Part shown: positions 31,130 through 53,232 of the stretch, piece by piece | Position numbering within the stretch: position 1 is the first letter of the stretch | How the letters are laid out: the number at the start of each line of letters is the position of its first letter | Origin: Paracoccaceae bacterium | Lineage (GTDB): Bacteria; Pseudomonadota; Alphaproteobacteria; Rhodobacterales; Rhodobacteraceae | Reading direction: 5' to 3' | NCBI GenBank assembly: GCA_030758115.1 | Contig: JANREX010000049.1 | Coordinates: 1-64,000 of the forward strand | DNA length: 64,000 nt | Notes under the pieces: generated by a model | What the model was told of the DNA's origin: nothing | Seen by the model: the letters and a program-made list of their open reading frames with translations, nothing else | Database searches by the model: none | Program-made: the position numbers and the translations under genes

Positions 31130-31144
31130 CTTGCAACCTTCGGA

Positions 31145-31948: not shown

Positions 31949-31985
31949 GTCGGGTCTCCGTTGTTCCGGGGAAAGCTAGCCGATC

Positions 31986-32993: not shown

Positions 32994-32997
32994 GTGG

Positions 32998-33336
32998 TTA
33001 TTCTTTTTCCATGGTGCATTGCAGCGGGTGCTGATGCCGCCGGGCGAAATCCATGACCTGGGTCACCTTGGTTTCCGCGATCTCGTGGCTGAAGACACCC
33101 ACCACGGCCAGGCCTTTCTTGTGCACCGTCAGCATGATCTCGAAGGCCTGGGCATGGGACATGCCGAAAAACCGTTCCAGCACATGCACGACGAATTCCA
33201 TCGGCGTGTAGTCATCGTTCAGCAAAAGTACCTTGTAAAGCGGCGGACGCTTGGTCTTCGGCCGCGTCTGAAGCACAACCGAGGCATCGCCGTCGCCGTC
33301 TTTCTTTTCAGACATCATGATAGGCCGCTGGATCAT
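32998..33336 (-). CDS. clpS: ATP-dependent Clp protease adaptor ClpS
   Basis: ClpS binds ClpA and delivers N-end-rule substrates to ClpAP. The conserved core is clear: [43 protein letters not shown] and [15 protein letters not shown]. It ends in [16 protein letters not shown] took the ATG at 33336, giving 112 residues; the ATGs at 33318 and 33315 are equally possible because the N-terminus is not conserved. It is divergent from the HAD gene. Confidence 0.95.
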
Positions 33337-33443
33337 TTGGCGCTGCTTCGCTTTCGCATTCGTGCTGAGTTTTGGCTTTGATGGTTTATATAACCTCAAT
33401 GGCCCGATAGAAAAGAGGCTGCTCCGGGATCGATGGGCAAGAG

Positions 33444-34142: not shown

Positions 34143-34418
34143 AAAGCGGCAGACGGCAGCCGAAAAATGTCTTTTCCCGATTTCGGCTTGAGCACCACAG
34201 GGCGCGCAAAGCGGTGCAAGGCGTCAACACAACCATACCGGTTGTTATACGACCCGACGATGCCACAACATGTTGCGTCACAAACCTGAAAACCACACAG
34301 GCAAACCAAGAAAGCCTTTGGAAATGAACACTTTATTCAGCGCAACCCATGTGGTAACCTTAAGATATAAAAATTGACCGACCGAAATATCGGCGGCGTG
34401 AGGCAGAAGGCAGTGACA

Positions 34419-36215: not shown

Positions 36216-36279
36216 TCACGCTTTGACAGGATCAAAGGGGGGGCTTTCTGCCCCCCCCAACGCCTCACTCCGTTCGACG

Positions 36280-36315
36280 CCCCCCCCGAGGATATTTGCG
36301 GCAAGAAGAAGCAGG
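36280..36315 (+). repeat. Dispersed intergenic repeat, copy 4
   Basis: This copy reads CCCCCCCGAGGATATTT then GCGGCAAGAAGAAGCAGG. It is preceded by a GGGGGGGC/GCCCCCCCC hairpin at 36237-36259. It lies between the convergent carboxypeptidase gene and ccoS. Confidence 0.75.
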
Positions 36316-36321
36316 TGCCGT

Positions 36322-36480
36322 TCAGGGCTTGGGGTGGTCGTCCCAATCCTTGTTCAGGATGCGGCGCGCGTCGCCTTCGGGGTCGTCATACTGGTTGCTG
36401 CGCACCGTGTAGAGGAAAGCCACGAGGCCGACGCCCCCCAGCAGCAGGGATATCGGGATCAGGTAGGACAGAACTTCCAT
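36322..36480 (-). CDS. ccoS: cbb3-type oxidase assembly protein CcoS
   Basis: This 52-residue protein starts MEVLSYLIPISLLLGGVGLV, with one membrane span, followed by AFLYTVRSNQYDDPEGDARR and the end ILNKDWDDHPKP. The QYDDxxG(D)xxRIL signature is typical of CcoS, needed to mature the cytochrome cbb3 oxidase. It starts four bases after the ccoI stop and is the last gene of ccoGHIS. It is easy to miss because it is short and overlapped by longer open frames on the other strand. Confidence 0.93.
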   Translation of the reverse strand: MEVLSYLIPISLLLGGVGLVAFLYTVRSNQYDDPEGDARRILNKDWDDHPKP

Positions 36481-36484
36481 CGGA

Positions 36485-38671
36485 TTACTTGAGCCTCAGC
36501 GCGTTGAGAGAAACGGTGATCGAGGATAGCGACATCGCCAGCGCCGCCACCAGCGGCGTGGCAAGGCCGATCACCGCCACGGGCACCGCAATGACATTGT
36601 ACCACGTGGCGATGCGGAAGTTTTCCTTGATGCGGCGGATGGCAGATTGCGCGGTTGTCAACGCGTCACCAATGGGTTCCAGATCGCTGCCCAAAAGGAC
36701 GATGTCCGAGGCGACCCGCGCCGCATCCAGCGCAGAGGCCGGCGAGATCGACACATCGGCCGCGGTCAGCGCGGCGGTATCGTTCAACCCGTCGCCCACC
36801 ATCAGCACATGCTGCCCCTCGGCCTGCAATTCCGCGATACGCGCGGCCTTGTCGGCGGGCAGTGCATCGGCCTTCCATTCGGCAATGCCCAGACGCGCGG
36901 CCAGCGCCGCGACGACCGGTTCGGTATCGCCCGACATCAGGATCACGCGCTTGCCCTGCCGCATGAGGTGCTGCACGGCATTGGCCGCACCGGGCCGCAG
37001 GCGGTCGGTGAAGGTAAAGGCGCGCGGGGCGGCATCGCCGATGGCCAGCCAGGCGGTTGTCTCGGCCCCCGGGGTGGCACCTGTCCAGGCGGCACGGCCC
37101 AAACGCACGCGCTGTCCTTGCCAGATGCCTTGCGTGCCGTAACCCGGCACCTCGGCCAGGTCATCGACCTTGGCGGGCGTGATCCCGGCTGCGCGCGCCG
37201 CATTGGCCAGCGAGACTGCCAGCGGATGCGACGACATCTGGGCCAGAGCCATGGCAATCGCGGCATCATTTCCGTCATGCGCGGACAGGTTGGTCAGTTC
37301 CGGCGTGCCTGCGGTCAGGGTGCCGGTCTTGTCGAAGACGACCGTGTCGACCTGCGCCAGCCGTTCCAGCGCCGTTGCATCCTTGATCAGCATCCCCTTG
37401 CGGAACAACCGGCCCGAGGCCGCTGTGGTCACCGCCGGCACCGCAAGACCCAGGGCGCAGGGGCAGGTGATGATCAGAACGGCGGCCGCGATGTTCAGGG
37501 CGGTGCGCACATCCCAGGAATAGAGATACCAGCCCAGGAAACTGAGCGCCGACAGGATATGCACCCCCGGCGCGTAAAGCTTCGCGGCGCTGTCGGCCAG
37601 CGAGGTGTAGCGCGACCGACCGCTTTCGGCGATGGCCACAAGATCGGCCATGCGGTGCAGCGAGGTATCGCGCCCCACGGCTGTCGCGCGAATGGTCAGC
37701 GGTCCGGTCAGGTTGACCTCGCCAGCCGAGACGGCGCGACCGGGTTCGGCAAACACGGGCAGGGTTTCGCCGGTCAGCAGCGAGCGGTCGATCTCGGACC
37801 GGCCATCGGCGATCACGCCGTCGACGGGCATCCGCCCACCGGGGCGGACCAGTATCAGATCGCCAATGCGCAGTTCGGCCACCGGCAGCTGCACCTCGGC
37901 CCCGTCGCGCAGGGCGATGGCGCGTGGCACTTCAAGGGCTGACAACTCCTGTGCGGCGGACCGCGCGATGGCGCGGGTCCGGTGATCCAGGTAGCGCCCC
38001 GTCAGAAGGAAGAAGACCAATGCCACGGTCGCGTCGAAATAGGCATGATGCCCGGACAGCGCCGTTTCCCACAGCGATGTGGCAAGCGCCAGAACCAGCG
38101 CCAGCACGATGGGCACATCCATGTTCAGGCGGCGCGCGCGCAGGGCCGCCCAGGCGCTTTTGTAAAAGGGCACGCCCGAGAAGGCGAGCGTCGGCAGGGC
38201 AATCGCGGCCGATATCCAGTGAAACAGATCGCGCGTGGCATCCGTGGCACCCGACCAGACCGCCACGGACAGCAGCATGACGTTCATCATGGCAAAACCC
38301 GCCACCGCCATCCGCATCAAGAGGTCGCGACCCGCGCGGTCGTTCTGCGTCACGGACAGGGTGCCGGCATCCAGCTCATGCGCCTCATAGCCCGCCCCTT
38401 CGAGGACCTTGACCAGCTGATCCGGCATGATCGCGGGGTCGGCCTCGACGGTGGCGCGGCGCAGGGTCAGGTTGACGCGGGCCGAACGGACACCCGGCAC
38501 CGCGGCAAGCGCCTTCTCGACCGTCGATATACAGGCAGAACAGTGGATCGTCGGCAGTGACAACGCGATCTGGGCGTCCTTGTGCAGGGCCTGTTCGGCC
38601 AGGGCCTGCGCGCCCGGAGCGGCGACACAGGCAGGGCAGGCCGAAATCGAAGGGCGCAGGGCTGCTGTCAT
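36485..38671 (-). CDS. ccoI: Copper-exporting P-type ATPase CcoI (FixI)
   Basis: CcoI is the CopA2-type P1B ATPase that exports Cu(I) for insertion into the CcoN binuclear centre. The 728-residue protein has an N-terminal cysteine pair (SACPAC), a heavy-metal-associated domain with HCSAC (Cys44/Cys47), TGE in LLTGETLP, the membrane CPCAL motif, DKTGTLT phosphorylation site and MVGDGLNDTAAL. About eight membrane segments are visible. It follows ccoH by 16 bases. Confidence 0.96.
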   Translation of the reverse strand: MTAALRPSISACPACVAAPGAQALAEQALHKDAQIALSLPTIHCSACISTVEKALAAVPGVRSARVNLTLRRATVEADPAIMPDQLVKVLEGAGYEAHELDAGTLSVTQNDRAGRDLLMRMAVAGFAMMNVMLLSVAVWSGATDATRDLFHWISAAIALPTLAFSGVPFYKSAWAALRARRLNMDVPIVLALVLALATSLWETALSGHHAYFDATVALVFFLLTGRYLDHRTRAIARSAAQELSALEVPRAIALRDGAEVQLPVAELRIGDLILVRPGGRMPVDGVIADGRSEIDRSLLTGETLPVFAEPGRAVSAGEVNLTGPLTIRATAVGRDTSLHRMADLVAIAESGRSRYTSLADSAAKLYAPGVHILSALSFLGWYLYSWDVRTALNIAAAVLIITCPCALGLAVPAVTTAASGRLFRKGMLIKDATALERLAQVDTVVFDKTGTLTAGTPELTNLSAHDGNDAAIAMALAQMSSHPLAVSLANAARAAGITPAKVDDLAEVPGYGTQGIWQGQRVRLGRAAWTGATPGAETTAWLAIGDAAPRAFTFTDRLRPGAANAVQHLMRQGKRVILMSGDTEPVVAALAARLGIAEWKADALPADKAARIAELQAEGQHVLMVGDGLNDTAALTAADVSISPASALDAARVASDIVLLGSDLEPIGDALTTAQSAIRRIKENFRIATWYNVIAVPVAVIGLATPLVAALAMSLSSITVSLNALRLK

Positions 38672-38687
38672 GATCCTGTCTTTCGGC

Positions 38688-39149
38688 TTAGCGGGTCACA
38701 TGCAGGATGACGCGCTGGGTGAACGGCGTGCCATCCTCGGCAAGGGCGGACATGCGGATGTTCCAGTTGCCATCCGCCAGCGACACGGGCGCAACATAGG
38801 CCGCCCCGTCAAAGATGAACTCGGGGCGGATATCGTCCGCGACATGGGTGGCGCGGCCGATCACCGCGTCAAGACCGCCCACACGCACCGGCGTGCCCTG
38901 CGCGTCGGTGATGCTCAGGATCACCTCGCCGTCGGCCGCATCGGCCCTGACGGTCCAACCCAGCGCCTCCTGGGCGGCCTTGCGCGCGTTGAACTCCTGG
39001 CTTGCCACGTAGGAGTTCTTGACCTCGAGCCCTGGGAAGGTGGCGACCGCGGACCAGGCCAGCATGAGGTTGACACCGATGATGACGCCGAATGCACCCA
39101 CGAAGATCATGAGGACATGGCGTCCGGTCAGTTGTTTCTCGGCCTTCAT
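38688..39149 (-). CDS. ccoH: cbb3 oxidase maturation protein CcoH (FixH)
   Basis: The 153-residue product has a single N-terminal membrane span (GRHVLMIFVGAFGVIIGVNLMLAW) after a short basic start. A periplasmic FixH domain follows, with NSYVASQEFNARKAAQEALGW, the usual spacing, and NWNIRMSALAEDGTPF near the end. It assists assembly of the cbb3 oxidase. Its start overlaps the ccoG stop by four bases. Confidence 0.94.
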   Translation of the reverse strand: MKAEKQLTGRHVLMIFVGAFGVIIGVNLMLAWSAVATFPGLEVKNSYVASQEFNARKAAQEALGWTVRADAADGEVILSITDAQGTPVRVGGLDAVIGRATHVADDIRPEFIFDGAAYVAPVSLADGNWNIRMSALAEDGTPFTQRVILHVTR

Positions 39150-40582
39150 TGTACTCTCCCGTTGAAGATCGTGTCCTTGTAGACGCGCAGGTCATTGGTC
39201 ATGTCCTGCACCCAGAGGCGGATATCCACACGGCCCTGCGTCGCGGCCGGGGTGTCAGGCCCCGCCACCACATAGACCCGCTGCAGGAATGTCGTGTCGG
39301 CGGGCACCATGACAGTGTCGCCTTCCACCGATTCCAGCACAACCGTGAAGGGCTGGTCGCCCTCGACCGTGACGCGGAAGGGATGATCCTCGCCCTGCTT
39401 GTTCAGCAGGCGCACGTCATAGGTGTTGCGGATAGACCCGTCAGACAGGACCACGAAAGTGGGGTTGCGGATCGGCGCGACCGTCATCTCGATATCCGAT
39501 CGCACCAGCAGCGCGACCATCAGGCCGACGCCCACGAGGGACCACAGGCCGGTATAGAGCATGGTGCGCGGGCGCAGCACATGTTTCCAGATCGGCTTGG
39601 GCGCGTGGCCCGCACGCTCTGCCGTCTCGTCGGTCAGGGCCATGTAGTCGATCAGCCCGCGCGGCTTGCCGATCTTGTCCATCACGTCGTCACAGGCGTC
39701 GATGCACAAGGCGCAGGTGATGCATTCCAGTTGCTGCCCGTCGCGAATGTCGATCCCCATGGGGCAAACGTTGACGCAGGCCATGCAGTCGATGCAGTCG
39801 CCCAGCTGTTCTGCGCCCTCGCCCTTGCGATGCTTGCCACGCGGCTCGCCGCGCCAGTCGCGATAGGCGACGGTCAGCGTGTCCTCGTCCATCATCGCCG
39901 CCTGGATGCGCGGCCAGGGGCAGGCATAGATGCAGATCTGTTCGCGCGCGAAACCGCCGAAGAAAAAGGTCGTCAAGGTCAGGATCAGCATCGTCGTATA
40001 GGCGACGGGATGGGCGTTCAGCGTGACCAGATCGCGCGCCAGCGTGGGCGCATCGGTGAAGTAGAAAACCCAGGCACCGCCGGTGGCCAGCCCGATCAGA
40101 AACCAGGATGTCCATTTCGTCAGCCGCAAGCGCAGCTTGCGCAGGTCCCATTTTTCCTGCCGGTGCAGGCGCAGGCGTGCGTTCCGGTCACCCTCGATCC
40201 AGCGTTCGACGAGGATGAAAAGATCGGTCCAGACCGTCTGCGGGCAGGCATAGCCGCACCAGACCCGGCCCAGCGCCGAGGTGAACAGGAACAGGCCCAG
40301 CCCGGCCATGACCAGAAGACCCGCGATGAAATAGAATTCATGCGGCCAGATCTCGATCCAGAAAAAGAAGAAGCGGCGGTTGGCAAGATCGACCAGCACG
40401 GCCTGATCCGGCAGGTTCGGTCCACGGTCCCACCGCAGCCAGGGGGTAATGTAGTAGATACCCAGTGTGACCGCCATGATCACCCATTTCAGGCTACGGA
40501 AATTACCCGAAACGCGGCGCGGAAAGATCGGCTCTCGCGCGACGTAAAGGCTTGGCGGGACATCTGGTTCAGTCTGGGACAC
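39146..40582 (-). CDS. ccoG: cbb3 oxidase accessory iron-sulfur protein CcoG (FixG/RdxB)
   Basis: CcoG is a membrane-bound 4Fe-4S protein that reduces Cu(II) to Cu(I) for cbb3 oxidase biogenesis. The 478-residue protein has five membrane segments, a CGYACPQTVWTD and a CIYACPWPRIQ motif, and two ferredoxin clusters, CIDCMACVNVCPMG and CITCALCIDACDDV. A C-terminal immunoglobulin-like domain follows residue 370. An FNR box stands 66 bases upstream at 40648-40661. It is the first gene of ccoGHIS. Confidence 0.95.
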   Translation of the reverse strand: MSQTEPDVPPSLYVAREPIFPRRVSGNFRSLKWVIMAVTLGIYYITPWLRWDRGPNLPDQAVLVDLANRRFFFFWIEIWPHEFYFIAGLLVMAGLGLFLFTSALGRVWCGYACPQTVWTDLFILVERWIEGDRNARLRLHRQEKWDLRKLRLRLTKWTSWFLIGLATGGAWVFYFTDAPTLARDLVTLNAHPVAYTTMLILTLTTFFFGGFAREQICIYACPWPRIQAAMMDEDTLTVAYRDWRGEPRGKHRKGEGAEQLGDCIDCMACVNVCPMGIDIRDGQQLECITCALCIDACDDVMDKIGKPRGLIDYMALTDETAERAGHAPKPIWKHVLRPRTMLYTGLWSLVGVGLMVALLVRSDIEMTVAPIRNPTFVVLSDGSIRNTYDVRLLNKQGEDHPFRVTVEGDQPFTVVLESVEGDTVMVPADTTFLQRVYVVAGPDTPAATQGRVDIRLWVQDMTNDLRVYKDTIFNGRVQ

Positions 40583-40647
40583 GGGGGAATCGCTCCATCA
40601 CATGCATGTCGGATGGCCCCTTTTCACAGTCTTGCGGCGACCTAGCC

Positions 40648-40661
40648 TTGACCTGCATCAA
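40648..40661. promoter_or_regulatory. FNR box upstream of ccoGHIS
   Basis: The sequence TTGAC-CTGC-ATCAA matches TTGAY-N4-RTCAA and lies 66 bases before the ccoG start. It supports FnrL activation of the oxidase assembly operon at low oxygen. Confidence 0.82.
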
Positions 40662-40921
40662 ATTCTGACTCTGCGAGATACCTATTCCGTCAGGTCAACC
40701 GGATCTGCGGGTTGCCAGCCACAGTGGCAAGGCGGCCCGGGATGGCGGTTGGTACAGGCCGGAAATGGACCCGCCGCCCGACCGGAGGAACCGATGAGGC
40801 GGCGGATCTGCTTGCCGGTCAGGGAGGGCCGGCAAGGACAGGATTGCCTTGGCTATCCCGTCCGATGAATTGGTGCCGGCCTTCCTGGAAACGCGCGAAC
40901 AGGACGGAAGGTCCGGCACCC

Positions 40922-40950
40922 ACCCTTGGGCGCATGTGACGCCCAAGGGT
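40922..40950 (-). terminator. Hairpin after ccoNOQP
   Basis: ACCCTTGGGCG (40922-40932) pairs perfectly with CGCCCAAGGGT (40940-40950) around a seven-base loop, 14 bases past the ccoP stop. There is no strong U-run, so it may stabilise the 3' end rather than terminate by itself. Confidence 0.65.
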
Positions 40951-40964
40951 ATCTCTCGCGGCGA

Positions 40965-41840
40965 TTACTCGCCGCCGCCCAACTGGTGGACATAGGTCGC
41001 GACGGCGCGGATCTCGGCCTCGGACAGACGGTTCGACCAGGACGGCATCACGCCGAAGCGCGAATATGTCACGGACTGGGTCAGCGTGTCGTGGCTGCCG
41101 CCATAGAGCCAGATCGCGTCGGTCAGGTTCGGTGCGCCCTGGGCGCGATCGCCTGTGCCGTTTTCCATGTGGCAGGCCGCGCAGTTGTCCTGGTAGACGA
41201 CCGATCCGGCCTCGACCATGGACGCATCCTGTGGTGTGCCCGACAAGGACATCACGTAGTTCACGACCTGGTCGATCTCTTCCTTGGCCAGGATGTCGCC
41301 AAAGGCGGGCATCTGCGACCAACGCGCATCAGGGTCCTCTTCGTTGCGGATCCCGTGGTTGATCGTGGCATGGATCGCCTCGATATCGCCGCCCCAAAGC
41401 CAGTCATCGTCCAGCAGGTTCGGATAGCCGGATGCCGCGACACCGGCCGCACCAGATCCGTGGCACTGGGCGCACCAGGTACGGAACACGGCGGCCCCGG
41501 CCGAGGTGGCATAGGTGCGCAGCTCCGCATCATCGGCGATCGCCGTCAGCTCGGCCGAGGCCAGCTTTGCGTTGATCGTGGCGTTGGCCGCTTCGGCCGC
41601 GTCGATTTCGGCCTGCACGTTGGCCCGGGTGGACCAGCCCAGAAGGCCGGGCGTGGCCGCCTTGATCCCCGGCCAGGCCGGATAGGCGATCGTGTAGAGA
41701 ACCGCCCAGACGATACAGGCATAGAAGGTCCACAGCCACCAGCGCGGCAGCGGGTTGTTGTACTCCTCGATCCCGTCCCAGCTGTGGCCGGTCGTATCCA
41801 CCTCGGGCTTCTTGGAGTGGTTCTGCGGTTGCTTTGCCAT
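40965..41840 (-). CDS. ccoP: cbb3-type cytochrome c oxidase subunit III (CcoP)
   Basis: CcoP is the membrane-anchored dihaem cytochrome c of the cbb3 oxidase. The 291-residue protein has the N-terminal [22 protein letters not shown] segment, one membrane span ([19 protein letters not shown]) and two haem sites, CAQCH and CAACH, with a Met ligand in each lobe (SQMPAFG and GVMPSW). The ATG at 41840 follows a sequence ending GGAGGCGTGAGG. It follows ccoQ by four bases. Confidence 0.97.
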
Positions 41841-41844
41841 GTCC

Positions 41845-42054
41845 TCACGCCTCCTTGGCGTCACGGGCGCGGGCAGGTTTGTCACCTGCGGCGGCTGGTT
41901 TGTCGTCGTGCCGGAACGGGATGTTTGCCACGTCGCGATAGGTCTTGGAGCTGCCGGGACGCATCACGAAGATGACCATCCCGATGAAGAACAAGAACAG
42001 CGCAAGCAGCATCCAGCTGTCGGCGAATTCGCGCAGAAAGGAATAGGTTTCCAT
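41845..42054 (-). CDS. ccoQ: cbb3-type oxidase subunit CcoQ
   Basis: The 69-residue product has one membrane span ([20 protein letters not shown]) followed by [20 protein letters not shown], the typical CcoQ/FixQ arrangement. It stabilises the cbb3 complex. It lies between ccoO and ccoP with short gaps. Confidence 0.94.
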
Positions 42055-42069
42055 GATCCATATCCCCCC

Positions 42070-42795
42070 TTAGCGGCTGGCGTCGGGCGTGAAGGTCGAG
42101 AAATCGACCAGAGTGCCCAACATCTGCAGGTAGGCAATCAGCGCATCGGTTTCCGAAATGCCGGGCTGCCCGTCGAAGTTGCGCACCTGCGCACCGGGAT
42201 AGCGTTCCACCAGCCCGTCCCAGTCACCGTCGGGATCGACCTGCACCGCGAAATCGACCCGCGCGTTCTCGATCATCTCGTCGGTATAGGGCACGCCAAC
42301 CATGCGATGGGTGGCCATCAGCTCGCCGATATACTCGCCATCGATCAGCCGGTTCTCCAGGAAGCCATATTTCGGCATCACGGATTCCGGCACCACCGAT
42401 TGCGGATCACGCAAGTGAACCAGGTGCCAGTCGTCCGAGTAGCGTCCGCCGACACGGGCCAGGTCCGGCCCGGTGCGTTTGGACCCCCACTGGAACGGGT
42501 GGTCATACTTGCTTTCGGCGGCCAGCGAATAGTGGCCATAGCGTTCGACCTCGTCCCGCATCGGGCGGATCATCTGGCTATGGCACACATAGCAGCCTTC
42601 GCGGATGTAGATATCGCGTCCGGCCAGTTCCAGCGGGGAGTAGGGGCGCACGCCCTCTACATCCTCGATGGTGTTTTCCAGCCAGAACAGCGGTGCGATC
42701 TGCACGATCCCGCCCACGGTCACCACAAGGAAGGCGAAGATGGCCAGCAGCGTCACGTTCTTTTCGAGAACGGCGTGTTTGTCGAGAATTGCCAT
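42070..42795 (-). CDS. ccoO: cbb3-type cytochrome c oxidase subunit II (CcoO)
   Basis: CcoO is the monohaem cytochrome c subunit. The 241-residue protein has an N-terminal anchor ([20 protein letters not shown]) and the haem site [11 protein letters not shown] near residue 68. [16 protein letters not shown] and MPKYGFLE, which supplies the Met ligand, are also present. It transfers electrons from CcoP to CcoN. It lies 14 bases behind ccoN. Confidence 0.97.
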
Positions 42796-42809
42796 TGATC
42801 CGGCCCTCC

Positions 42810-44414
42810 TTATTCAGCCGGGACTGCGGAATGCGTGGCCTCAACGGCCGGTGCGCGCTTCACAGTCATCCAGAGGTTGTAGCACATGATGATGGCCCCC
42901 ATGAGGAACATGACCCCACCCAGACCGCGCACCACATACATCGGGAACTTGGCGGCCACGGTGTCGGCAAAGCTGTTCACCAGGAAACCGTTGGCATCCA
43001 CTTCGCGCCACATCAGGCCTTCCATGATGCCGGTCACCCACATGGCGGCGGCGTAGAGAATGATGCCGATGGTGGCGAGCCAGAAGTGCCAGCTCACGAG
43101 CGAGAGAGAATAGAGCCGCTCACGGTTCCACAGTTTCGGCACCAGGAAGTAGAGCGCGCCGAAGGTGATCATCCCGTTCCAGCCAAGCGCGCCGGAATGC
43201 ACGTGCCCGATCGTCCAGTCGGTGTAATGCGACAGCGAGTTGACCGCGCGGATCGACATCATCGGACCCTCGAATGTGGACATGCCGTAGAAGCCCACGG
43301 AAATCACCATCATGCGGATGATCGGATCGGTGCGCAGCTTGTCCCAAGCCCCCGACAGCGTCATCAGGCCGTTGATCATGCCACCCCAGGAGGGCATCCA
43401 CAGAACGATCGAGAACACCATGCCAAGCGTCGAGGCCCAGTCAGGCAGCGCGGTATAGTGCAGGTGGTGCGGACCAGCCCAGATGTAGATGAAGATCAGC
43501 GCCCAGAAGTGGATGATCGACAGCTTGTAGCTGAAGACCGGCCGTTCGGCCTGTTTCGGCACGAAGTAATACATCATGCCCAGGAAGCCGGCGGTCAGGA
43601 AGAAGCCCACGGCGTTATGGCCGTACCACCACTGCACCATCGCATCCTGCACACCCGAGAAGACCTGCACGGACTTGGATCCGAAGACCGATACCGGAAT
43701 GCTGAGGTTGTTGACCACATGCAGCATCGCCACGGTGATGATGAAGGACAGGTAGAACCAGTTCGCCACGTAGATATGCGGCTCCTTGCGCTTGACCAAT
43801 GTGCCCAGGAACACGGCCAGGTAGGCCAGCCAGACGATGGTCAGCCACCAGTCGACATACCATTCAGGCTCGGCGTATTCCTTGGACTGGGTCGCCCCCA
43901 GCAGATAGCCGGTTGCCGCCAGCACGATCACCAGCTGGTAACCCCAGAAGACGAACCACGCCAGGTTTCCACCCCACAGGCGCGCGGCGCTTGTGCGCTG
44001 CACCACGTAGAAGGAGGTCGCGATCAGCGCGTTGCCCCCAAAGGCGAAAATCACCGCTGACGTATGCAACGGGCGCAAACGCCCGAAATTCAGGAAACCC
44101 TGCGCCCATTCGAAATTGAGCACCGGAAAGGCAAGCTGAAAGGCGATGATCACGCCAACCAGAAACCCGACAACCCCCCAACCAGCGGTGGCGATCACGC
44201 CGGCGCGCACGACGCCGTCCATGTATTCCCCGGAAAGATCGCGTTTTACGACCGGTTCCCCGGTCTGGCGCAGCGTCCAGAGAAAGACCCCACCCGCTGC
44301 TGCCGCCACGAGAAGGGCGTTCACCAGATAGGCAAGGTCACGTGCATAATTGGCCGCAATCAACGCGAACAGCGTGATGAGGCCAAGCACGATCAGCTTG
44401 ATATAATTCAACAT
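42810..44414 (-). CDS. ccoN: cbb3-type cytochrome c oxidase subunit I (CcoN)
   Basis: CcoN is the catalytic haem-copper subunit that reduces oxygen with high affinity and pumps protons. The 534-residue protein has about twelve spans, His ligands in [37 protein letters not shown] and [13 protein letters not shown], and the cbb3-type segment [13 protein letters not shown]. Two FNR boxes lie upstream, at about 94-107 and 126-139 bases. It is divergent from the universal stress protein gene. Confidence 0.98.
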
Positions 44415-44507
44415 TTTGCGTCCCTTTTGTCCTGTCCCGGTGATTCGTCACGATCTCGGGGTTTCTTAAGACTGGGCCAGTGATGCAATCTGCCGGGCCG
44501 GGCTGCC

Positions 44508-44521
44508 TTGATCTGTGTCAA
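44508..44521. promoter_or_regulatory. FNR box 1 between ccoN and usp
   Basis: The sequence TTGAT-CTGT-GTCAA matches the FnrL consensus. It is nearer ccoN (about 94 bases before its start) and probably drives ccoNOQP. Confidence 0.85.
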
Positions 44522-44539
44522 GGCTGGGGGGCTAGGTCC

Positions 44540-44553
44540 TTGACGCGTGTCAA
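44540..44553. promoter_or_regulatory. FNR box 2 between ccoN and usp
   Basis: The sequence TTGAC-GCGT-GTCAA matches the FnrL consensus. It is nearer the universal stress gene (about 61 bases before its start) and probably drives it in the other direction. Confidence 0.83.
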
Positions 44554-44613
44554 AGTGGTCAACCGGCGCGCGTGTTAGCCTTCTTGGAATGCAAGATTTC
44601 AAAGGAGAGTGAC

Positions 44614-45453
44614 ATGGCGTACAAGACACTGTTTTCGGTAATCACCGACACCGCCTTGGCGGGTCCCGTGCTGGATCAGGCAACCGCCATGGCAAAGGCA
44701 TGGGACGCGCATCTGGATGTCCTGTGCATGGGGCTGGATCGCACGCAGACCGGTTTTTACTATGCCGGCGCGAATGCGATGATCCTTCAGGAAACGATCA
44801 CCCGCGCGCAGGAAGAAGCGCAGGAGGTCGAGGCACATGTGAAGGAAATCCTGTCCAGAAGCGATCTACGCTGGAGCCTGGACAGCGGTGTGGCACAGCT
44901 GGCCGACATGGGGCGGCACGTGGCACAGCGCGCGCGCTTCTCGGATCTGGCGATCCTGCCGAAACCTTACGGCGAAAAACGCGGGGTCGAACAGGAGCCG
45001 ATCCTCGAATCCGCGATGTTCGACGGCGCGACGCCCGTGCTGATGGTGCCCGAATCCGGGCCGGTCGTGACCAATCCCAAACGGATCATGCTGGCCTGGA
45101 ACGAGAGCGACGAGGCCTTGGCGGCGTCGCGTACCGCCCTGCCCTTTCTGAAGCAGGCCGATCTGGTGCGGATCGTCGTCATTGATCCGCCGGTGCACAG
45201 CCCCACGCGGTCAGATCCGGGCGGTCTGTTGTCGCAATACCTGTCACGGCATGGCGTCACTTGCGAGATCGACGTGCTGTCCAAAACCCTGCCCCGTGTG
45301 TCGGATGTGTTGATGCGCCATGCAGCGGACACGGACTCGGACATGATCGTGATGGGTGCCTATGGTCACTCGCGGTTCCGCGAGGCGATCCTGGGCGGCG
45401 CGACACGCAACATGCTGGAAAACGCCAAGATCCCGGTGTTCCTGGCACATTGA
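44614..45453 (+). CDS. Universal stress protein family, tandem-domain
   Basis: The 279-residue product has two Usp-like halves. The first starts MAYKTLFSVITDTALAGPVLDQA. The second contains RIMLAWNESDEALAASRTALPFL and ends with the nucleotide-binding pattern DMIVMGAYGHSRFREAILGGATRNML. Such proteins are often induced at low oxygen, which fits the FNR box at 44540. The ATG at 44614 follows AAAGGAGAG; the frame extends back to 44572 without a site. Confidence 0.9.
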   Translation: MAYKTLFSVITDTALAGPVLDQATAMAKAWDAHLDVLCMGLDRTQTGFYYAGANAMILQETITRAQEEAQEVEAHVKEILSRSDLRWSLDSGVAQLADMGRHVAQRARFSDLAILPKPYGEKRGVEQEPILESAMFDGATPVLMVPESGPVVTNPKRIMLAWNESDEALAASRTALPFLKQADLVRIVVIDPPVHSPTRSDPGGLLSQYLSRHGVTCEIDVLSKTLPRVSDVLMRHAADTDSDMIVMGAYGHSRFREAILGGATRNMLENAKIPVFLAH

Positions 45454-45465
45454 AGCATCGAATAT

Positions 45466-45498
45466 AGGCGCGGCCGTCCCGTGGCGGTCGCGCCTTTT
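45466..45498 (+). terminator. Intrinsic terminator after usp
   Basis: AGGCGCGGCCG (45466-45476) pairs with CGGTCGCGCCT (45485-45495), with one G-U pair, and TTT follows. It lies between convergent usp and fnrL. Confidence 0.75.
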
Positions 45499-45546
45499 CC
45501 TGTCAGGAATGCATGGGCGTGTCGTGTCGGCGCGCCAGTGGCGACA

Positions 45547-46293
45547 TCAGGCCAGCAGGCCACCGTCGCTGTCGTCACCCGCTTCTTCCAGAAGGCGGGA
45601 GAAATCGGGCACGGTCACATGCCGCTTGCCCTGAAGCGAAATCACCCCGTCACGCTTGAGGGCTGATATCTGGCGGCTGACCGTTTCCAGCGTCAGGCCA
45701 AGATAATCCGCCATCGCCTCGCGCGTCAGGGGCAGGTCAAAGACCATGGCGCCCTTTGGTGTCCGCAGGTTCAGCGAGGCATCACGCCGCGCGATGATCG
45801 TCAGAAGCGATGCGATCTTTTCGCGCGCGGTCTTGCGGCCCAGCACCAGCATCCATTCACGCGCTGCATCCAGCTCGTCCAGGGTCATTTCCAGAAGGCG
45901 ATGTGCGATATGGGGAGTCCGCTCCATCATCGCCTCGAAAGGCTTCTTGCGGAAACAGCACATGACAAGGTCGGTTGTTGCCACGACATCATAGGCGGAT
46001 CCGTCGCGGCCCGGGCGGCCCACGAAATCAGAAGGCAGCAGCAGGCCCACCATCTGGGTGCGGCCATCCTCCATGGTCTGCGTCAGCGTGGCGATGCCGG
46101 ACACGACAGATCCCACGAAATCCATGCGATCGCCCGACCATATGACGGTCTGGCCAGCTTCGAACGAGCGGTAATATTTGATCTCTTCAAGACGCTCAAG
46201 CTCGTCGCTTTCGCAACGGGCGCAAACTGCCCTGTGTCTGATTGGACAATCGCCACACTCGACCGAGTGAGACACGGTTTTCTCATTCAGCAT
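45547..46293 (-). CDS. fnrL: Oxygen-sensing regulator FnrL
   Basis: FnrL is a Crp/Fnr-family global activator of micro-oxic genes using an oxygen-labile 4Fe-4S cluster. The 248-residue protein has the N-terminal cluster cysteines at 13, 16, 24 and 27 (ECGDCPIRHRAVCARC) and a further Cys in VMCCFRK. The cyclic-nucleotide-like beta roll follows, then the recognition helix LTLETVSRQISALKR, whose E-SR pattern reads TTGAT half-sites. An FNR box lies only 18 bases before its start, which suggests autoregulation. It is divergent from hemN. Confidence 0.97.
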   Translation of the reverse strand: MLNEKTVSHSVECGDCPIRHRAVCARCESDELERLEEIKYYRSFEAGQTVIWSGDRMDFVGSVVSGIATLTQTMEDGRTQMVGLLLPSDFVGRPGRDGSAYDVVATTDLVMCCFRKKPFEAMMERTPHIAHRLLEMTLDELDAAREWMLVLGRKTAREKIASLLTIIARRDASLNLRTPKGAMVFDLPLTREAMADYLGLTLETVSRQISALKRDGVISLQGKRHVTVPDFSRLLEEAGDDSDGGLLA

Positions 46294-46310
46294 GTTGACA
46301 CTTCGCGCAC

Positions 46311-46324
46311 TTGATCTGGGTCAA
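46311..46324. promoter_or_regulatory. FNR box between fnrL and hemN
   Basis: The sequence TTGAT-CTGG-GTCAA matches the FnrL consensus. Its centre is about 41 bases before the hemN ATG and 25 before the fnrL start, so the two genes cannot both use it in the standard -41.5 arrangement with an ordinary leader. Confidence 0.85.
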
Positions 46325-46358
46325 AGAATTTTTCCCAATTGTCTAGAAGGGTAGACAC

Positions 46359-47714
46359 ATGATGGTGAAAAAGCAACTCGCAAAACTTGGTCTCTTCGAC
46401 GCGAAAGTGCCGAGATATACCAGTTACCCAACCGCTCCGCATTTCTCCAATGCGGTTAGCGAAGACAATTACACAAGCTGGATCAAAGAGATAGCCCCTG
46501 GCTCGGACATATCTCTTTATCTGCATGTCCCCTTTTGTCGCAGGCTGTGCTGGTTTTGCGCCTGCCGGACGCAAGGCACCCAGAGCGACGCCCCCGTCGC
46601 GGCCTATCTGGAGACGCTGAAAGCGGAATTGACACTCCTCAAGCGCATCCTGCCTGAAGGCGTGCGCCTGTCGCGACTGCATTGGGGCGGCGGCACACCC
46701 ACGCTGATGTCGGCAGCCATGATGAGCGATCTGGCCGGTGCCGTTTTCGATGTGGCGCCCATGGCGCCGCAGGGCGAGTTTTCCGTCGAGATCGACCCGA
46801 ATGAAATCGACGATGCCAGGCTGGATGCCCTTGCTGCGGCCGGGATGAACCGCGCCTCGATCGGGGTGCAGGATTTCGACGAGGCGATCCAGCAGACCAT
46901 CGGGCGCATTCAGGGCTATGACATCACCCGTGATGCGGTGCTGGCGATCCGCGCGCGCGGCGTCACCAGCCTCAATGCGGATATCCTGTTCGGCCTGCCG
47001 GACCAGTCGCGCGCACGAATCACCGAAAGCGTGCAAAAGCTTCTGTCGCTCAACCCCGACCGGGTGGCGCTTTATGGTTATGCGCATGTGCCGTGGATGG
47101 CCAAGCGCCAGCAGATGATCCCATCTGATGCCCTGCCCACGCCAGAAGAACGGCTGGAACTGTTCGAGACCGCGCGGAAACTGTTTCTCTGGGATGGCTA
47201 TGCCGAGATCGGGATCGACCATTTCGCCACCCAGACCGATGGGCTGACCGTGGCGCAGAAGGCGGGGAAACTGCGGCGCAACTTCCAGGGTTATACGGAT
47301 GATCCGGCGGATGTGCTGATCGGGGTCGGGGCCTCATCGATTTCGCGGTTCCCACAGGGATATGCGCAGAACGCACCGGCCACGGGGGCGCATACGGCGG
47401 CCATTCGCGACGGGCGGTTCTCTGTGTCAAAGGGTCATGTGTTCACCCCGGATGACAAGCTGCGCGGGCGGATGATCGAGGCGCTGATGTGCGATTTCAA
47501 GGTCGACAGCCATGAATTGCAGGACAGGTTCAATGTGTCCGAGGCCCATGTCACCTCTCTGTTCGGCAAGGTGATGACGGATTTCCCCGGCATGCTGACC
47601 CTCGATTCCGGGGTGCTTGGCGTCCCGGTCGCGGCGCGCCCCCTGACCCGGATGATCGCACGGAGTTTCGACGCCTATGACATGAGCAAGGCCGGGCATA
47701 GTTCGGCCATCTGA
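46359..47714 (+). CDS. hemN: Oxygen-independent coproporphyrinogen III dehydrogenase
   Basis: HemN is the radical-SAM enzyme that makes protoporphyrinogen IX without oxygen. The 451-residue protein has PRYTSYPTAPHF near the N-terminus and the cluster motif HVPFCRRLCWFCAC, where CxxxCxxC plus the next Cys are HemN features. HWGGGTPTLMS, GVQDFDEAIQQTIGRIQ and the C-terminal helical domain with IEALMCDFKVD complete it. An FNR box lies upstream, and a GTCTA/TAGAC hairpin with GAAGGG in its loop precedes the start. Confidence 0.97.
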   Translation: MMVKKQLAKLGLFDAKVPRYTSYPTAPHFSNAVSEDNYTSWIKEIAPGSDISLYLHVPFCRRLCWFCACRTQGTQSDAPVAAYLETLKAELTLLKRILPEGVRLSRLHWGGGTPTLMSAAMMSDLAGAVFDVAPMAPQGEFSVEIDPNEIDDARLDALAAAGMNRASIGVQDFDEAIQQTIGRIQGYDITRDAVLAIRARGVTSLNADILFGLPDQSRARITESVQKLLSLNPDRVALYGYAHVPWMAKRQQMIPSDALPTPEERLELFETARKLFLWDGYAEIGIDHFATQTDGLTVAQKAGKLRRNFQGYTDDPADVLIGVGASSISRFPQGYAQNAPATGAHTAAIRDGRFSVSKGHVFTPDDKLRGRMIEALMCDFKVDSHELQDRFNVSEAHVTSLFGKVMTDFPGMLTLDSGVLGVPVAARPLTRMIARSFDAYDMSKAGHSSAI

Positions 47715-47738: not shown

Positions 47739-48683
47739 GTGCGGCTGGCGAGTTTCAATGTCCAAAGCCTGCGGCTGCGCTGGCCGGGCGGCCGCCCCAG
47801 GCTGGACGGGGCGCGCGATGCCGATGTCCCGGCTGATCGCGGCCCCGCAGCAGAAGCGCTTGATGCCCAGGACCGTCGCCTGACCGCTGCGGTTCTGGCC
47901 CATGCCCGTGCCGATGTGATCGCCCTGCAAGAGGTGTTCGATCAAGCCACGCTGGATCATTTTCACGATCATTGCCTTTTGGCCACGGGTGCTGCCCCCT
48001 ACCCTTACCGCCATTGCATCCCCGGAAATGACGGACGGGGTCTTGATGTGGCGGTCATCAGCCGCCTGCCCCTGCGTTCCGTGGTCAGCCATGCGCAGGA
48101 GACACCGACCAGCCTCGGACTTGAGGTGGAGCCCGAGGTCGACCCGGACATGCCGGTATTCCGGCGCGATTGCCTGCGGGTCGAGGTCGGTCTGATCACC
48201 CTTTTCATCTGCCATTTCAAAGCCCCCTACCCCGATGCCAGCGCCACATGGCCCGTGCGCCGCGCCGAAGCACTGGCGCTGCATCGCCTGATCGCGCGGC
48301 AATTCCCCGATCCTGCGTCGGGGCTTTGGCTGATCCTTGGCGATCTGAACGAACCACGCCAGACCGCGCCCGCAAGGCCCGCGCCCGCCATCGCCCCGGT
48401 GACCGCCCCTTTCAGCATAGACCTGCTGGAACGCCTGCCGGTCGCCGAACGATGGTCATGGCACGAACCTTTCGGCCCTGATCTTGGCAGTCCGGATGTG
48501 ATGCTGGCCAGCCCGGCACTGGCCCGGCGCTGGCCGGATGCCTGCCCGCAGATCATCCGGCACGGTCTTGCGCTTGAGGCCGCCGCATATGACGGGCCAC
48601 GTCTGGCAGGTGTGGGCAGGCATCGCCCGCATGCCAGCGATCATGCCGCACTGATGATAGAACTTCCGGGGGCCGAAGGATGA
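47739..48683 (+). CDS. Endonuclease/exonuclease/phosphatase-family protein
   Basis: The 314-residue protein has the EEP-fold motifs: LASFNVQSLRLRW, the metal-binding Glu in VIALQEVFD, LWLILGDLNEPR and the final HASDHAALM. Family members are DNases, phosphodiesterases or lipid phosphatases, and nothing seen here tells which. No signal peptide is visible. The GTG start at 47739 follows AGAAAGGGGG. Its end overlaps the next gene by four bases, so they are probably co-expressed. Confidence 0.87.
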   Translation: MRLASFNVQSLRLRWPGGRPRLDGARDADVPADRGPAAEALDAQDRRLTAAVLAHARADVIALQEVFDQATLDHFHDHCLLATGAAPYPYRHCIPGNDGRGLDVAVISRLPLRSVVSHAQETPTSLGLEVEPEVDPDMPVFRRDCLRVEVGLITLFICHFKAPYPDASATWPVRRAEALALHRLIARQFPDPASGLWLILGDLNEPRQTAPARPAPAIAPVTAPFSIDLLERLPVAERWSWHEPFGPDLGSPDVMLASPALARRWPDACPQIIRHGLALEAAAYDGPRLAGVGRHRPHASDHAALMIELPGAEG

Positions 48684-49363
48684 TACGCAATCTGCTCTAT
48701 TCAGCCGCGATCCTGACATTCGCCGGCATATCGCCGCTTCGGGCGCAGGGTCACGCTTGCGAAAACGCGCAAACGCAGGTCACCGGGGCCGACCCCGATC
48801 TTGCCGGGCATGTCTGCAAGGTGGTGGACCGCGCGCTGGAACAATTGGCCCAATGCCATCTTGCCCAGAAAGACCCTTTGACCATCAACATCGTGGATGG
48901 GTTCAGCGATGACAGGCCCGGATGCGTTGGAATTTTCGATTGCGCCAACGACCGGATCGAGATCCTGCAGCCCGAGGTGATGGGCAAGAGCCTTGAGGAC
49001 AATCGCCGCTTTTCGCGCCTGCCCTTGATGTCGCTCTTCGACAGCGTGGTGGCGCATGAATTGACCCATGCGCTTGTGTACCAGAACCTCGGCGAAGATA
49101 GCGGCAGCTGGGCCCAGAACGAATACATGGCCTATGCGATGCAGATGGCCTTTCTGTCTTCCGAGGACAGGGCCCTTTTCATGCAGGGTTTCACGACCGA
49201 CAGGCCCGGATCATTGGCCGGGATCAATATCCTGATCATGTTGATGGCCCCGGACGCCTTTGCCGCAGAGGTCTGGCTGCATTTCAGCGCAAAGGGCAAT
49301 GGCTGCGACTTCATGGGGCAGCTTTTGTCAGGCGAGAAGGCGATCGGACGGGTTTCGCCTTGA
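48680..49363 (+). CDS. Exported HExxH protein of unknown function
   Basis: The 227-residue product has a signal peptide (MIRNLLYSAAILTFAGISPL, then RAQG). A zinc-metallopeptidase-like motif HELTH (residues 126-130) is followed 18 residues later by Glu in AQNEYMAYAMQM, the distance expected for a gluzincin third ligand. Six cysteines in the mature part (27, 46, 59, 82, 88 and one near 214) could form disulfides. Otherwise no family was recognised. It overlaps the upstream EEP gene (ATGA) and ends 12 bases from the convergent yejF-like gene. Confidence 0.8.
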   Translation: MIRNLLYSAAILTFAGISPLRAQGHACENAQTQVTGADPDLAGHVCKVVDRALEQLAQCHLAQKDPLTINIVDGFSDDRPGCVGIFDCANDRIEILQPEVMGKSLEDNRRFSRLPLMSLFDSVVAHELTHALVYQNLGEDSGSWAQNEYMAYAMQMAFLSSEDRALFMQGFTTDRPGSLAGINILIMLMAPDAFAAEVWLHFSAKGNGCDFMGQLLSGEKAIGRVSP

Positions 49364-49375
49364 CCCGGCGTATGC

Positions 49376-50965
49376 TCAGGCGGTCAGGTCCAATGCCGCC
49401 GCCAGCAGGGTGCGGGCGTACTCCGTGCGCGGGTTGGCGAACAATTCCTGCGCCTCGCCTGCCTCGACCACATCGCCCTGTTTCATCACGATCATCTTGT
49501 GGCTCATGGCGCGCACGACGTTCAGGTCGTGGCTGATGAACAGATAGGCCAGCCCGTATTTCAGCTGCAGCGCGCGCAGCAGGTCGACGATCTGCACCTG
49601 CACCGTCATGTCCAGCGCCGAAGTCGGCTCGTCCAGCACCAGCAGCTTGGGCCGCAGGATCATGGCGCGGGCGATGGCGATGCGCTGGCGCTGACCACCT
49701 GAAAATTCGTGCGGGTAGCGATGCATCGTGGCCGGGTCCAGCCCGACCTCGGTCATGATCTCGGCCACCATCTGGCGCTTGTCCTGACCGGGCGCGACAC
49801 CATGCACACCCAGGCCTTCCGCGATGATCTGCTCGCAGGTCATGCGCGGCGACAGGCTGCCGAACGGATCCTGGAACACGATCTGCATGTCCTTGCGCAA
49901 GGCGCGCAGCTTTGACGTTGACCAGGCCCGCACATCCTGACCGTCGAAGGTGATCGCGCCCTCCGATCCGATCAGGCGCATGATGGCCAGCGCCAGCGTG
50001 GTCTTGCCCGATCCGCTTTCGCCGACGATCCCCAACGTCTCGCCCGCGCGGACACTGATCGTGGCGTCGTTCACCGCCTTCACATGGCCCACCGTGCGCT
50101 TGAGAAAGCCGCGCTGGATCGGGAACCAGACCTTCAGATGATCGGTGCGGATCAGTTCGGGGGCGTCTTCCGGCACCGGGGAAGGCTTGCCCACCGCGCG
50201 CGCGCCCAGCAGCTTGCGGGTATAGTCATGCTGCGGATTGGCGAAAATCTCGGCCGTCGGCCCCTGTTCGACGATCTCGCCGCCTTTCATCACGCAGACC
50301 TTGTCGGCGATGCGGCGCACGATGCCCAGGTCATGGGTGATGAACAGCAACCCCATGTTCTCGGTCCGCTTCAACTCGGCCAGCAGGTCAAGGATCTGCG
50401 CCTGAATGGTCACGTCCAGCGCGGTTGTCGGCTCATCAGCGATCAGCACATCAGGCTTGTTGGCCAGCGCCATGGCGATCATCACCCGCTGCCGCTGCCC
50501 GCCCGACAACTGGTGCGGATAGGCGCCAAGGCGGCTTTCGGGATCACGGATACCGACCTTTTCCAGAAGCTCGATGATACGCGCCCGCGCGGCGTCACCC
50601 ACGATACCCTGATGCAGGGCCAGCGATTCAGACAGCTGCCGCTCCAACGTGTGCAGGGGGTTCAGACTGGTCATCGGCTCCTGAAAGATGAAGCTGATGT
50701 CATTGCCGCGTACCTTGCGCAGCATCGCCTCATCCGCGCCGATCATCTGCTGGCCGTCATAGGTCACAGACCCGGACACCTGCGCACTATCGCCCAGCAG
50801 CGACACCGTGCTGAGGGCGGTTACCGATTTGCCCGACCCGCTTTCGCCGACCAGCGCCACGGTCTCGCCCCGCTCCAGCGTGAATGACACACCGCGCACG
50901 GCCTGCGTCAGCTTGCCGTCCTGCCGGAAGGACACGTTCAGGTCACGGACCTCAAGCAGGCTCAT
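49376..50965 (-). CDS. Peptide ABC transporter, double ATP-binding protein (YejF type)
   Basis: The 529-residue protein fuses two oligopeptide-type ATPase domains. The first has [21 protein letters not shown] and [11 protein letters not shown], and the second has [23 protein letters not shown] and [11 protein letters not shown]. Each domain ends with the oligopeptide/dipeptide C-terminal segment. It powers the YejABE importer. The start overlaps the yejE-like permease by four bases, and it is the last gene of the operon. Confidence 0.94.
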
Positions 50966-52137
50966 TGAAAGGTCTTTCTGGGGTCGAACGCGTCACGCAC
51001 GCCTTCAAAGATGAAGACCAGCAGCGACAACATGATGGCAAAGACGAAAAACGCGGTGAAGCCCAGCCAGGGCGCCTGAAGGTTCTGCTTGGCCTGAAGC
51101 GTCAGTTCGCCCAGCGACGGGGCCGAGGACGGCAGACCGAAGCCCAGGAAATCCAGACCCGCCAGCGTGGCGATCGTGCCCGTCACGATGAAGGGCAGCA
51201 TCGTCACGGTCGCCACCATCGCGTTGGGCAACATGTGGCGGAACATGATCGTGGTATTGCTGACGCCCAGCGCCTTGGCCGCGCGCACGTATTCCAGGTT
51301 CCGCGCGCGCAGGAATTCCGCGCGCACCACACCCACCAGCGCGGTCCAGCCGAACAGGACCGTGATGAAGACCAGCAACCAGAAACTTCGCCCCAATATC
51401 GCGAACAGGATGATGATCACGTAAAGCGCGGGCGTCGCCCCCCAGATCTCGATGATGCGCTGAAAGATCAGGTCGACCCAGCCGCCGAAATAGCCCTGGA
51501 TCGCGCCGGCCATGATCCCCACCAGGGAGGCCAGCGTCGTCACGATCAATGTGAACAGGATCGACAGGCGGAAGCCATAGATCACCCGCGCCATCACATC
51601 GCGCTTGGTGTCATCGGTGCCCAGCCAGTTCTGGCTGTTGGGTGGCAGGGGTGCGGCACCGGGGCGATCCACCGTCGTGCGGTAGCTATAGGGGATCAGC
51701 GGCCAGAGCGCCCAGCCCTGCTCGATCGCCTGCCCGTTCACCATGCCGGTTTCGGCCTGCTCCATGATCCCTTCGGGATCGTCGAAACAATCCTCAAGCC
51801 CGCCGGATGCGATCAGGCATTGCACCTCGATATCGCGATAAGGCGCTTCGGTCTGGAAATCGCCGCCAAAGGTGGTCTCGGGGTAGAAGCGGAAGATCGG
51901 CGCATAGAATTCGCCCTGGTATTTCACCAGGATCGGCTTGTCATTGGCGATGAACTCGGCGCAGAGCGACAGGCCGAACAGCACCGAGAAGATGATCAGC
52001 GACCAGAAGGCGCGCCGGTTACGCTTGAAATTGTTCCAGCGGCGCTGGTTCAGCGGCGACAGGAACGCCTTTTTCGGCGCGGCGATCTCGGCGGGCATGG
52101 GTGCGGGTGTCACGGTGGGATCGGGCAGGGTCGCCAT
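50962..52137 (-). CDS. Peptide ABC transporter permease (YejE type)
   Basis: The 391-residue inner-membrane permease has a cytoplasmic N-terminus with the SPLNQRRWNNFKRNRRAFWS segment of YejE and a long periplasmic insert (residues about 60-160). Its membrane domain includes the EAA loop ARNLEYVRAAKALGVSNTTIMFRHMLPNA. It lies between the yejB- and yejF-like genes with short spacing. Confidence 0.93.
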   Translation of the reverse strand: MATLPDPTVTPAPMPAEIAAPKKAFLSPLNQRRWNNFKRNRRAFWSLIIFSVLFGLSLCAEFIANDKPILVKYQGEFYAPIFRFYPETTFGGDFQTEAPYRDIEVQCLIASGGLEDCFDDPEGIMEQAETGMVNGQAIEQGWALWPLIPYSYRTTVDRPGAAPLPPNSQNWLGTDDTKRDVMARVIYGFRLSILFTLIVTTLASLVGIMAGAIQGYFGGWVDLIFQRIIEIWGATPALYVIIILFAILGRSFWLLVFITVLFGWTALVGVVRAEFLRARNLEYVRAAKALGVSNTTIMFRHMLPNAMVATVTMLPFIVTGTIATLAGLDFLGFGLPSSAPSLGELTLQAKQNLQAPWLGFTAFFVFAIMLSLLVFIFEGVRDAFDPRKTFQ

Positions 52138-52140
52138 CGC

Positions 52141-53232
52141 TTATCCCTCCCTCTTTTCGAAATCGATGCGTGGATCGACCAGCACATACATCAGGTCCGA
52201 CAGGATGCCCACCACCAGCCCGATCAGGCCAAAGATGAACAGCGTGCCGAAGATCACCGGATAGTCACGCGCCACCGCCGCCTCGAACCCAAGGCGGCCA
52301 AGGCCGTCCAGCGAAAAGATCGTCTCGATGATCAAGGAACCGCCGAAGAACACGCCGATGAACACCGCCGGGAAACCCGCGATCACGATCAGCATCGCGT
52401 TGCGGAAGACATGGCCGTAAAGCACCTTCTTCTCTGACAGGCCCTTGGCGCGGGCGGTCATGACATAGTGCTTCTTGATCTCGTCCAGAAAGCTGTTCTT
52501 GGTCAGCAGCGTAAGTGTGGCAAAGGCCGAGATGGTCGAGGCCGTCACCGGCAGCGCGATATGCCAGAAATAGTCGGCAACCTTGCCCAGCAGGGACAGC
52601 TCATCGAAATTGTCCGAGGTCAGCCCCCGCAGCGGGAATATCTGCCAGTAGGACCCGCCCGCGAAAAGCACCAGCAGCAGGATCGCGAACAGGAAACCGG
52701 GGATCGCATAGGCCACGATGATCATGCCCGACGTCCAGGTATCAAAAGGCGAGCCATCCTTGACCGCCTTGCGGATCCCCAGCGGGATCGACACCGCATA
52801 GGCAATCAGGGTGGACCACAGGCCAAGGGTGATCGACACGGGCATCTTTTCCAGCACAAGGTCGATCACGCTGATCGAACGGAAGTAGCTTTCGCCGAAA
52901 TCCAGCCGCATGTAGTTCCACAGCATGTTCAGGAACCGCTCCAGCGGCGGTTTGTCGAACCCGAATTCCTTCTCCAGCTGGGCGATGAACTCGGGCGGCA
53001 GGCCCCGCGCACCGGCATATTCGCTGTCAGCCCCCGATCCCGCGCCCGCGCTGGCCCCGGCATCGCCGCCACCGGCGAACCCTTCGAACACGTCGCCCTG
53101 CCCTTGCACCTGGGCGATGATCTGCTCGATCGGTCCGCCCGGCACGAATTGCACCAGGGCAAAGTTGATCACCATGATCCCCAGCAGCGTCGGGATCACC
53201 AGCGCCAGACGGCGAAGGATATAGGCGCCCAT
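52141..53232 (-). CDS. Peptide ABC transporter permease (YejB type)
   Basis: The 363-residue permease begins [29 protein letters not shown] and has the usual insert with the [11 protein letters not shown] segment. The EAA loop [22 protein letters not shown] is present. A Gly/Ala-rich stretch at residues about 50-70 is a loop. It pairs with the YejE-type permease, whose start is three bases past its stop. Confidence 0.94.

Follow-up and report, generated by a model that had tools for sequence, protein, structure and literature searches.

The gene at positions 48680 to 49363 on the forward strand of the window (the whole stretch of 64,000 nucleotides that was analysed) codes for a protein of the family DUF6639. 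It is likely that this protein is an exported, disulfide-stabilised zinc peptidase of the gluzincin type, and that its gene is the last one in an FnrL-controlled unit consisting of hemN, a gene for an EEP-fold protein and the DUF6639 gene. The open reading frame starts with ATG, ends with TGA and comprises 227 amino acids. Judged by eye, the N-terminus of the product, MIRNLLYSAAILTFAGISPLRAQ, resembles a short signal peptide with a charged start and a hydrophobic stretch (residues 1-22, positions 48680 to 48745, forward strand); the cleavage site, between LRA and Q, was also guessed by eye. The motif HELTH (residues 126-130, positions 49055 to 49069, forward strand) contains two putative zinc ligands and a putative catalytic glutamate, and Glu148 (positions 49121 to 49123, forward strand), which lies 18 residues after His130 with 17 residues in between, is the putative third zinc ligand. 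Furthermore, the protein possesses six cysteine residues at positions 27, 46, 59, 82, 88 and 209. The open reading frame, the signal-peptide-like start, the HELTH motif, Glu148 and the six cysteines had all been named in the preliminary description of this region and were found in the sequence.

The protein had initially been described as belonging to no recognised family, which proved to be wrong. In Pfam, the window protein matched PF20344 (DUF6639) with an E-value of 1.5e-12 and 48 bits against a curated gathering cut-off of 27, and the match was nearly full-length (residues 15-219 of 227 on profile positions 21-225 of 231). The same profile was matched by all 19 members of alignment A1. 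Going by its sequence, the window protein is therefore a member of this catalogued family, and nothing in it excludes membership; the family itself is uncharacterised and has no described function. A literature search for the names "DUF6639" and "PF20344" yielded no paper, and neither the window protein nor alignment A1 matched any solved structure by sequence at E ≤ 10.

Other families were matched much less convincingly. DUF3267, the SprT-like proteins and the M48 zincins gave weak local matches at the HExxH region (best E-values 0.02-0.05), each for only one or two of the 19 A1 members, and DUF3267 (PF11667) stayed at 14.4 bits below its curated cut-off of 27.1. In NCBIfam, the window protein showed just sub-threshold matches to SprT and flagellinolysin, and the best match in PHROGs had an E-value of only 0.18. 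At E ≤ 1 the 19 A1 members gave a list of 13 families, in which the M1 profile PF01433 did not appear, and no match of these members to the collagenase family in Pfam was obtained.

For the analysis of conserved residues a set of 47 copies was aligned, which consisted of 50 hits without the fragments L123 and L126 and without the broken copy in L124, which had been hit in two pieces, plus the window protein; L027, a near copy of the window protein (89% identical), was retained. His126, Glu127, His130 and Glu148 were each present in 47 of 47 copies, and the spacing HExxH-x17-E was found in 44 of them. The copies show 21-89% identity to the window protein and the motif is nevertheless invariant, which indicates that the HExxH motif is under strong constraint. 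Conservation of this motif in orthologues was one of the points on which the preliminary description had made the peptidase assignment depend, and it held throughout. Gluzincins are peptidases of clan MA with HExxH and a glutamate; both elements, the two histidines with the catalytic glutamate and the downstream glutamate as third metal ligand, occurred in every copy of the set. Glu148 is replaced by Asp in L143, a truncated metagenomic copy outside the set, in which Cys59 and Cys82 are also missing. Other conserved positions were Tyr149 (43 copies), Ala151 (45), Pro191 (46), Trp199 (42) and His201 (40 of 47). The latter residue (positions 49280 to 49282, forward strand) belongs to a W-x-H motif and is possibly a transition-state residue.

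The cysteine residues showed a pattern of their own. Cys46 was found throughout (47 of 47); Cys27 was present in 46 copies and lacking in L033, which is cut by a contig end. Cys59 and Cys209 were absent from the same five copies and never singly; these five form two groups on the tree, so that the losses probably go back to about two events, which is few. Cys88 was missing in ten copies and Cys82 in three, all of which lie among those ten, and the remaining seven copies without Cys88 each possess one extra cysteine, aligned at position 143, 100 or 92. In the aligned mature part, 43 of the 47 copies had an even number of cysteines; the odd ones were L033 (truncated), L044, L107 and L125. Many copies additionally have two more cysteines in the loop that follows HExxH, at alignment columns close to 138 and 143. 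A role of the cysteines as metal ligands was considered and dropped, since they are gained and lost in pairs. The pattern is that of disulfides in an exported protein, and from the alignment we infer three pairs: Cys27 (48758-48760) with Cys46 (48815-48817), Cys59 (48854-48856) with Cys209 (49304-49306), and Cys82 (48923-48925) with Cys88 (48941-48943), spanning positions 48758 to 48817, 48854 to 49306 and 48923 to 48943 of the forward strand, respectively. The last pair would form a disulfide hairpin.

Fold models were built from four sequences. The better model was of low confidence (mean pLDDT 61.5, pTM 0.64); values exceeded 70 for most of residues 23-100 and for residues 121-140, and they were below 50 for 166-209 and 211-227. 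Modelling of the mature part gave a poorer second model (pLDDT 40.4). A Foldseek search of the PDB with the better model remained without a match at E ≤ 0.001; the highest-ranking entries were baculovirus capsid proteins, with deuterolysin at rank 5 (E 1.9). With VIA-align against 992 chains, the best 50 alignments of this model that were listed comprised 40 aminopeptidases and LTA4 hydrolases of peptidase family M1 and ten bacterial collagenases of family M9. The top alignment covered 134 residues at 3.8 A with a Z-score of 10.4, which has to be read against the fact that best Z-scores of 7-8 are common without true kinship. For the model with pLDDT 40.4, M1 enzymes likewise took the first two places (Z 5.6 and 5.4).

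The DUF6639 proteins share with the catalytic domain of the M1 aminopeptidases and LTA4 hydrolase the HExxH motif and a glutamate one turn-length later, and these enzymes gave the best structural alignments of the pLDDT 61.5 model, with Z up to 10.4. However, DUF6639 consists of one small domain, whereas M1 enzymes are large multidomain proteins. The spacing between HExxH and Glu is x18 in M1 and x17 in 44 of the 47 DUF6639 copies, and GxMEN, the exopeptidase motif of family M1, was absent from 47 of 47 copies. In a profile comparison of DUF6639 with M1 domains, the match was confined to 16 columns around the HExxH helix (probability 27.5%); an alignment of EEP proteins, used as negative control, reached 0.2%. 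Peptidase_MA_2 (0 of 61 genomes over the cut-off) and DUF2268 (2 of 41 genomes) yielded too few sequences for use as comparison families. Because GxMEN is absent and the profile match to M1 is limited to these 16 columns, the DUF6639 protein is not a member of M1 and appears gluzincin-like outside this family. The peptidase domain of the M9 collagenases resembles the model likewise (ten of the best 50 alignments listed, Z up to 9.6), but DUF6639 is far smaller, and the identity in the structural alignments listed was 8-14%.

Taken by itself, a mode of action like that of a gluzincin thus finds moderate support from the models and the comparisons. The exported zinc peptidase that had been put forward initially holds as a putative assignment: HExxH and Glu148 occur in 47 of 47 copies, the cysteines show the pattern of disulfide pairs, and the best structural matches of the low-confidence model are gluzincins. 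After export by means of its signal peptide, the protein would fold outside the cytoplasm with the disulfides 27-46, 59-209 and 82-88 and would use His126, His130 and Glu148 as ligands of a single zinc ion. Glu127 would then activate a water molecule for attack on the peptide bond, as in gluzincin metallopeptidases, and His201 may stabilise the transition state. Such a small periplasmic or secreted peptidase would cut peptide bonds in the periplasm or outside the cell. The most serious alternative is that the protein is exported, binds zinc and has a gluzincin fold but acts as something other than a peptidase, such as a binding protein or a regulator that depends on metal. This is unlikely: the family is without known activity, fold alone shows no function, and His201, which alone could serve as a second catalytic residue, is not kept in seven of the 47 copies, but the catalytic Glu127 is present in all 47 and would not be needed by a mere binding protein.

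Beside the peptidase assignment as such, it is quite possible, if tentative, that the DUF6639 proteins represent a previously unrecognised group of small, disulfide-pinned periplasmic gluzincins with a minimal M1-like fold. In these proteins a C-x-G-x-(Y/F)-x-C hairpin (Cys82-Cys88) would replace the GxMEN edge strand, disulfides would be swapped in single lineages (Cys82 with the cysteine near 143, 100 or 92 when Cys88 is lost), and oxygen control by FnrL would apply in the lineage of the window.

The gene for the EEP-fold protein (Exo_endo_phos, PF03372, E 5.6e-16; positions 47739 to 48683, forward strand) overlaps the start of the DUF6639 gene by ATGA. Its product looks catalytically intact, because N7, E65, D202, N204, D301 and H302 were invariant in seven aligned EEP relatives. 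The EEP gene is preceded, with a gap of 24 bases, by hemN, which codes for the oxygen-independent coproporphyrinogen III oxidase (positions 46359 to 47714, forward strand; TIGR00538, 385 bits versus a cut-off of 325), and fnrL (positions 45547 to 46293) is oriented divergently from hemN. A palindrome search detected the FNR-type site TTGATCTGGGTCAA at positions 46311 to 46324 of the forward strand, 48 bases before the start of hemN. Sites of the same form were found 49 bases before hemN in L027, L028 and L128, so that an FNR-type site was present at four of four loci examined. In the window, seven perfect TTGAN6TCAA palindromes occur (29944-46642), with 0.48 expected. Three of the TTGAN6TCAA palindromes lie at 44398-44553, just before an open reading frame for a protein resembling universal stress proteins (44572-45453). 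For Dinoroseobacter shibae, a published study describes the Fnr site as TTGAT-N4-ATCAA and counts hemN among the FnrL-activated genes (PMC5398030). The EEP and DUF6639 genes are closely spaced behind hemN and are therefore probably transcribed from its promoter. The DUF6639 gene thus probably ends a hemN-EEP-DUF6639 unit under FnrL control, and as the last gene of a unit behind an FnrL site it would be expressed at low oxygen.

On the other side, genes of an ABC transporter of the peptide/nickel class (an ATPase and two permeases, PF00005 and PF00528; positions 49376 to 53232, reverse strand) are oriented convergently at a distance of 12 bases, with the gene of the binding protein beyond them; they are outside the transcription unit of the DUF6639 gene. 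The protein could also be imagined as a processing peptidase in the service of a peptide ABC transporter, as in L038, L040 and L099 the DUF6639 gene lies directly before a permease gene of the Opp/Nik class on the same strand, in L040 even between the genes for the binding protein and the permease, and a transporter of the same broad class adjoins the gene in the window. We nevertheless regard this function as rather improbable, since 3 of 47 copies are so placed, the transporter in the window is encoded on the opposite strand, and two of the three copies group together on the tree, if with low certainty.

Still less probable is a two-gene system in which the EEP and DUF6639 proteins act together. 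The ATGA overlap reported in the preliminary description is real in the window and recurs at the same-genus locus L003/L027 (L003 being from Rhodobacteraceae bacterium EhC02), and in a third pair from a different genus (L028, G070) the two genes are separated by 43 bases instead. Of 149 genomes, 6 contain both genes, 14 contain DUF6639 and ten contain a close EEP relative (18 at a loose cut-off): DUF6639 was found in 6 of the 10 genomes with a close EEP relative versus 8 of the 139 others (Fisher p 3.8e-5, kinship ignored). Without the two genomes in which the genes are adjacent, p was 0.0015, again with kinship ignored. Since relatedness between the genomes is left out of account in these tests and the EEP cut was fixed once the list had been seen, the co-occurrence is only a lead. 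Against a joint function, the pairing that had drawn attention initially is poorly conserved: an EEP gene lies upstream of DUF6639 in 3 of the 47 copies, the window included, a count to be read with the fact that some contigs end too near the DUF6639 gene to show the neighbour. In a third genus (G062) the order fnrL-hemN-EEP-ABC occurs without a DUF6639 gene between EEP and ABC, and the DUF6639 copy of this genome adjoins typA. Furthermore, the EEP protein has no signal peptide evident by eye, whereas its overlapping partner has one, so that the two proteins would work in different compartments. The EEP neighbour is accordingly a local accident or a lineage-specific partner, not a general one. 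Lastly, the possibility that the protein is an unrelated exported one whose HExxH is due to chance is for practical purposes refuted: the motif arose in 131 of 20,000 shuffles of the window protein and a single motif in a single protein is therefore weak, but more than chance is at work because HExxH and the third glutamate are kept in 47 of 47 copies.

Among the neighbours, typA was the commonest; of the 47 copies, 18 have it upstream on the same strand, and they come from 16 loci, two of which are tandem duplications (the gene pairs downstream of typA in L102 and L111). The varied positions suggest that members of the family were often moved or lost, with typA as the commonest place. A broken copy (L124, G265) also adjoins typA; its matches are split between reading frames with a stop.

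With the window protein alone as query, 14 of the 149 genomes searched from the taxonomic family of the host yielded relatives, and the genome of the window itself contains a single copy. With the A1 profile, matches were obtained in 39 of 394 genomes, including a marginal one (G020) and the broken copy in G265. One of 385 genomes of a class sample matched, which was the window's own, and in a phylum sample there were four matches in 299 genomes, namely the genome of the window, G265 and two further genomes, which belong to a single genus outside the class. DUF6639 is nearly confined to the host's own bacterial family. Within the genus of the window, PF20344 was found in two of seven genomes; three of the other five are less than 90% complete. 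A copy with the annotation DUF6639 also occurs on one plasmid record, from Salipiger. Relatives from one genus outside the host's class were L125 and L126 (G928 and G836). On the tree L125 groups with a divergent copy from G070, and this grouping may reflect a transfer between classes.

Some copies were found on contigs labelled as viral. In L135/L142 the DUF6639 gene lies between typA and cysE and beside a DUF2793 gene, and in L143 it is located beside cysE-like and DUF2793 genes. A viral origin of DUF6639 was dropped on account of the position of the L135/L142 copy; the contigs of L142 and L143 are probably chromosomal DNA next to a gene cluster which we take to be a gene transfer agent. Contigs of the viral collection also encode small proteins (L136-L141) with the motif HELAHA followed by ETEEVMCYL, one of which (L137) matches PHROG 1365, whose function is not described, and no Pfam family. 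These phage proteins were rejected as members of DUF6639, as the matches cover only part of the protein; they seem to form a small HExxH family of their own.

DUF6639 has hitherto been a family with a profile and no function. The interpretation as an exported gluzincin supplies residues that can be tested (His126, Glu127, His130, Glu148 and His201), a testable disulfide pattern and, in the lineage of the window, low oxygen as a testable condition. Nothing known is overturned by it. If it is true, the set of envelope proteases in the Rhodobacteraceae-like group would gain one small enzyme family.
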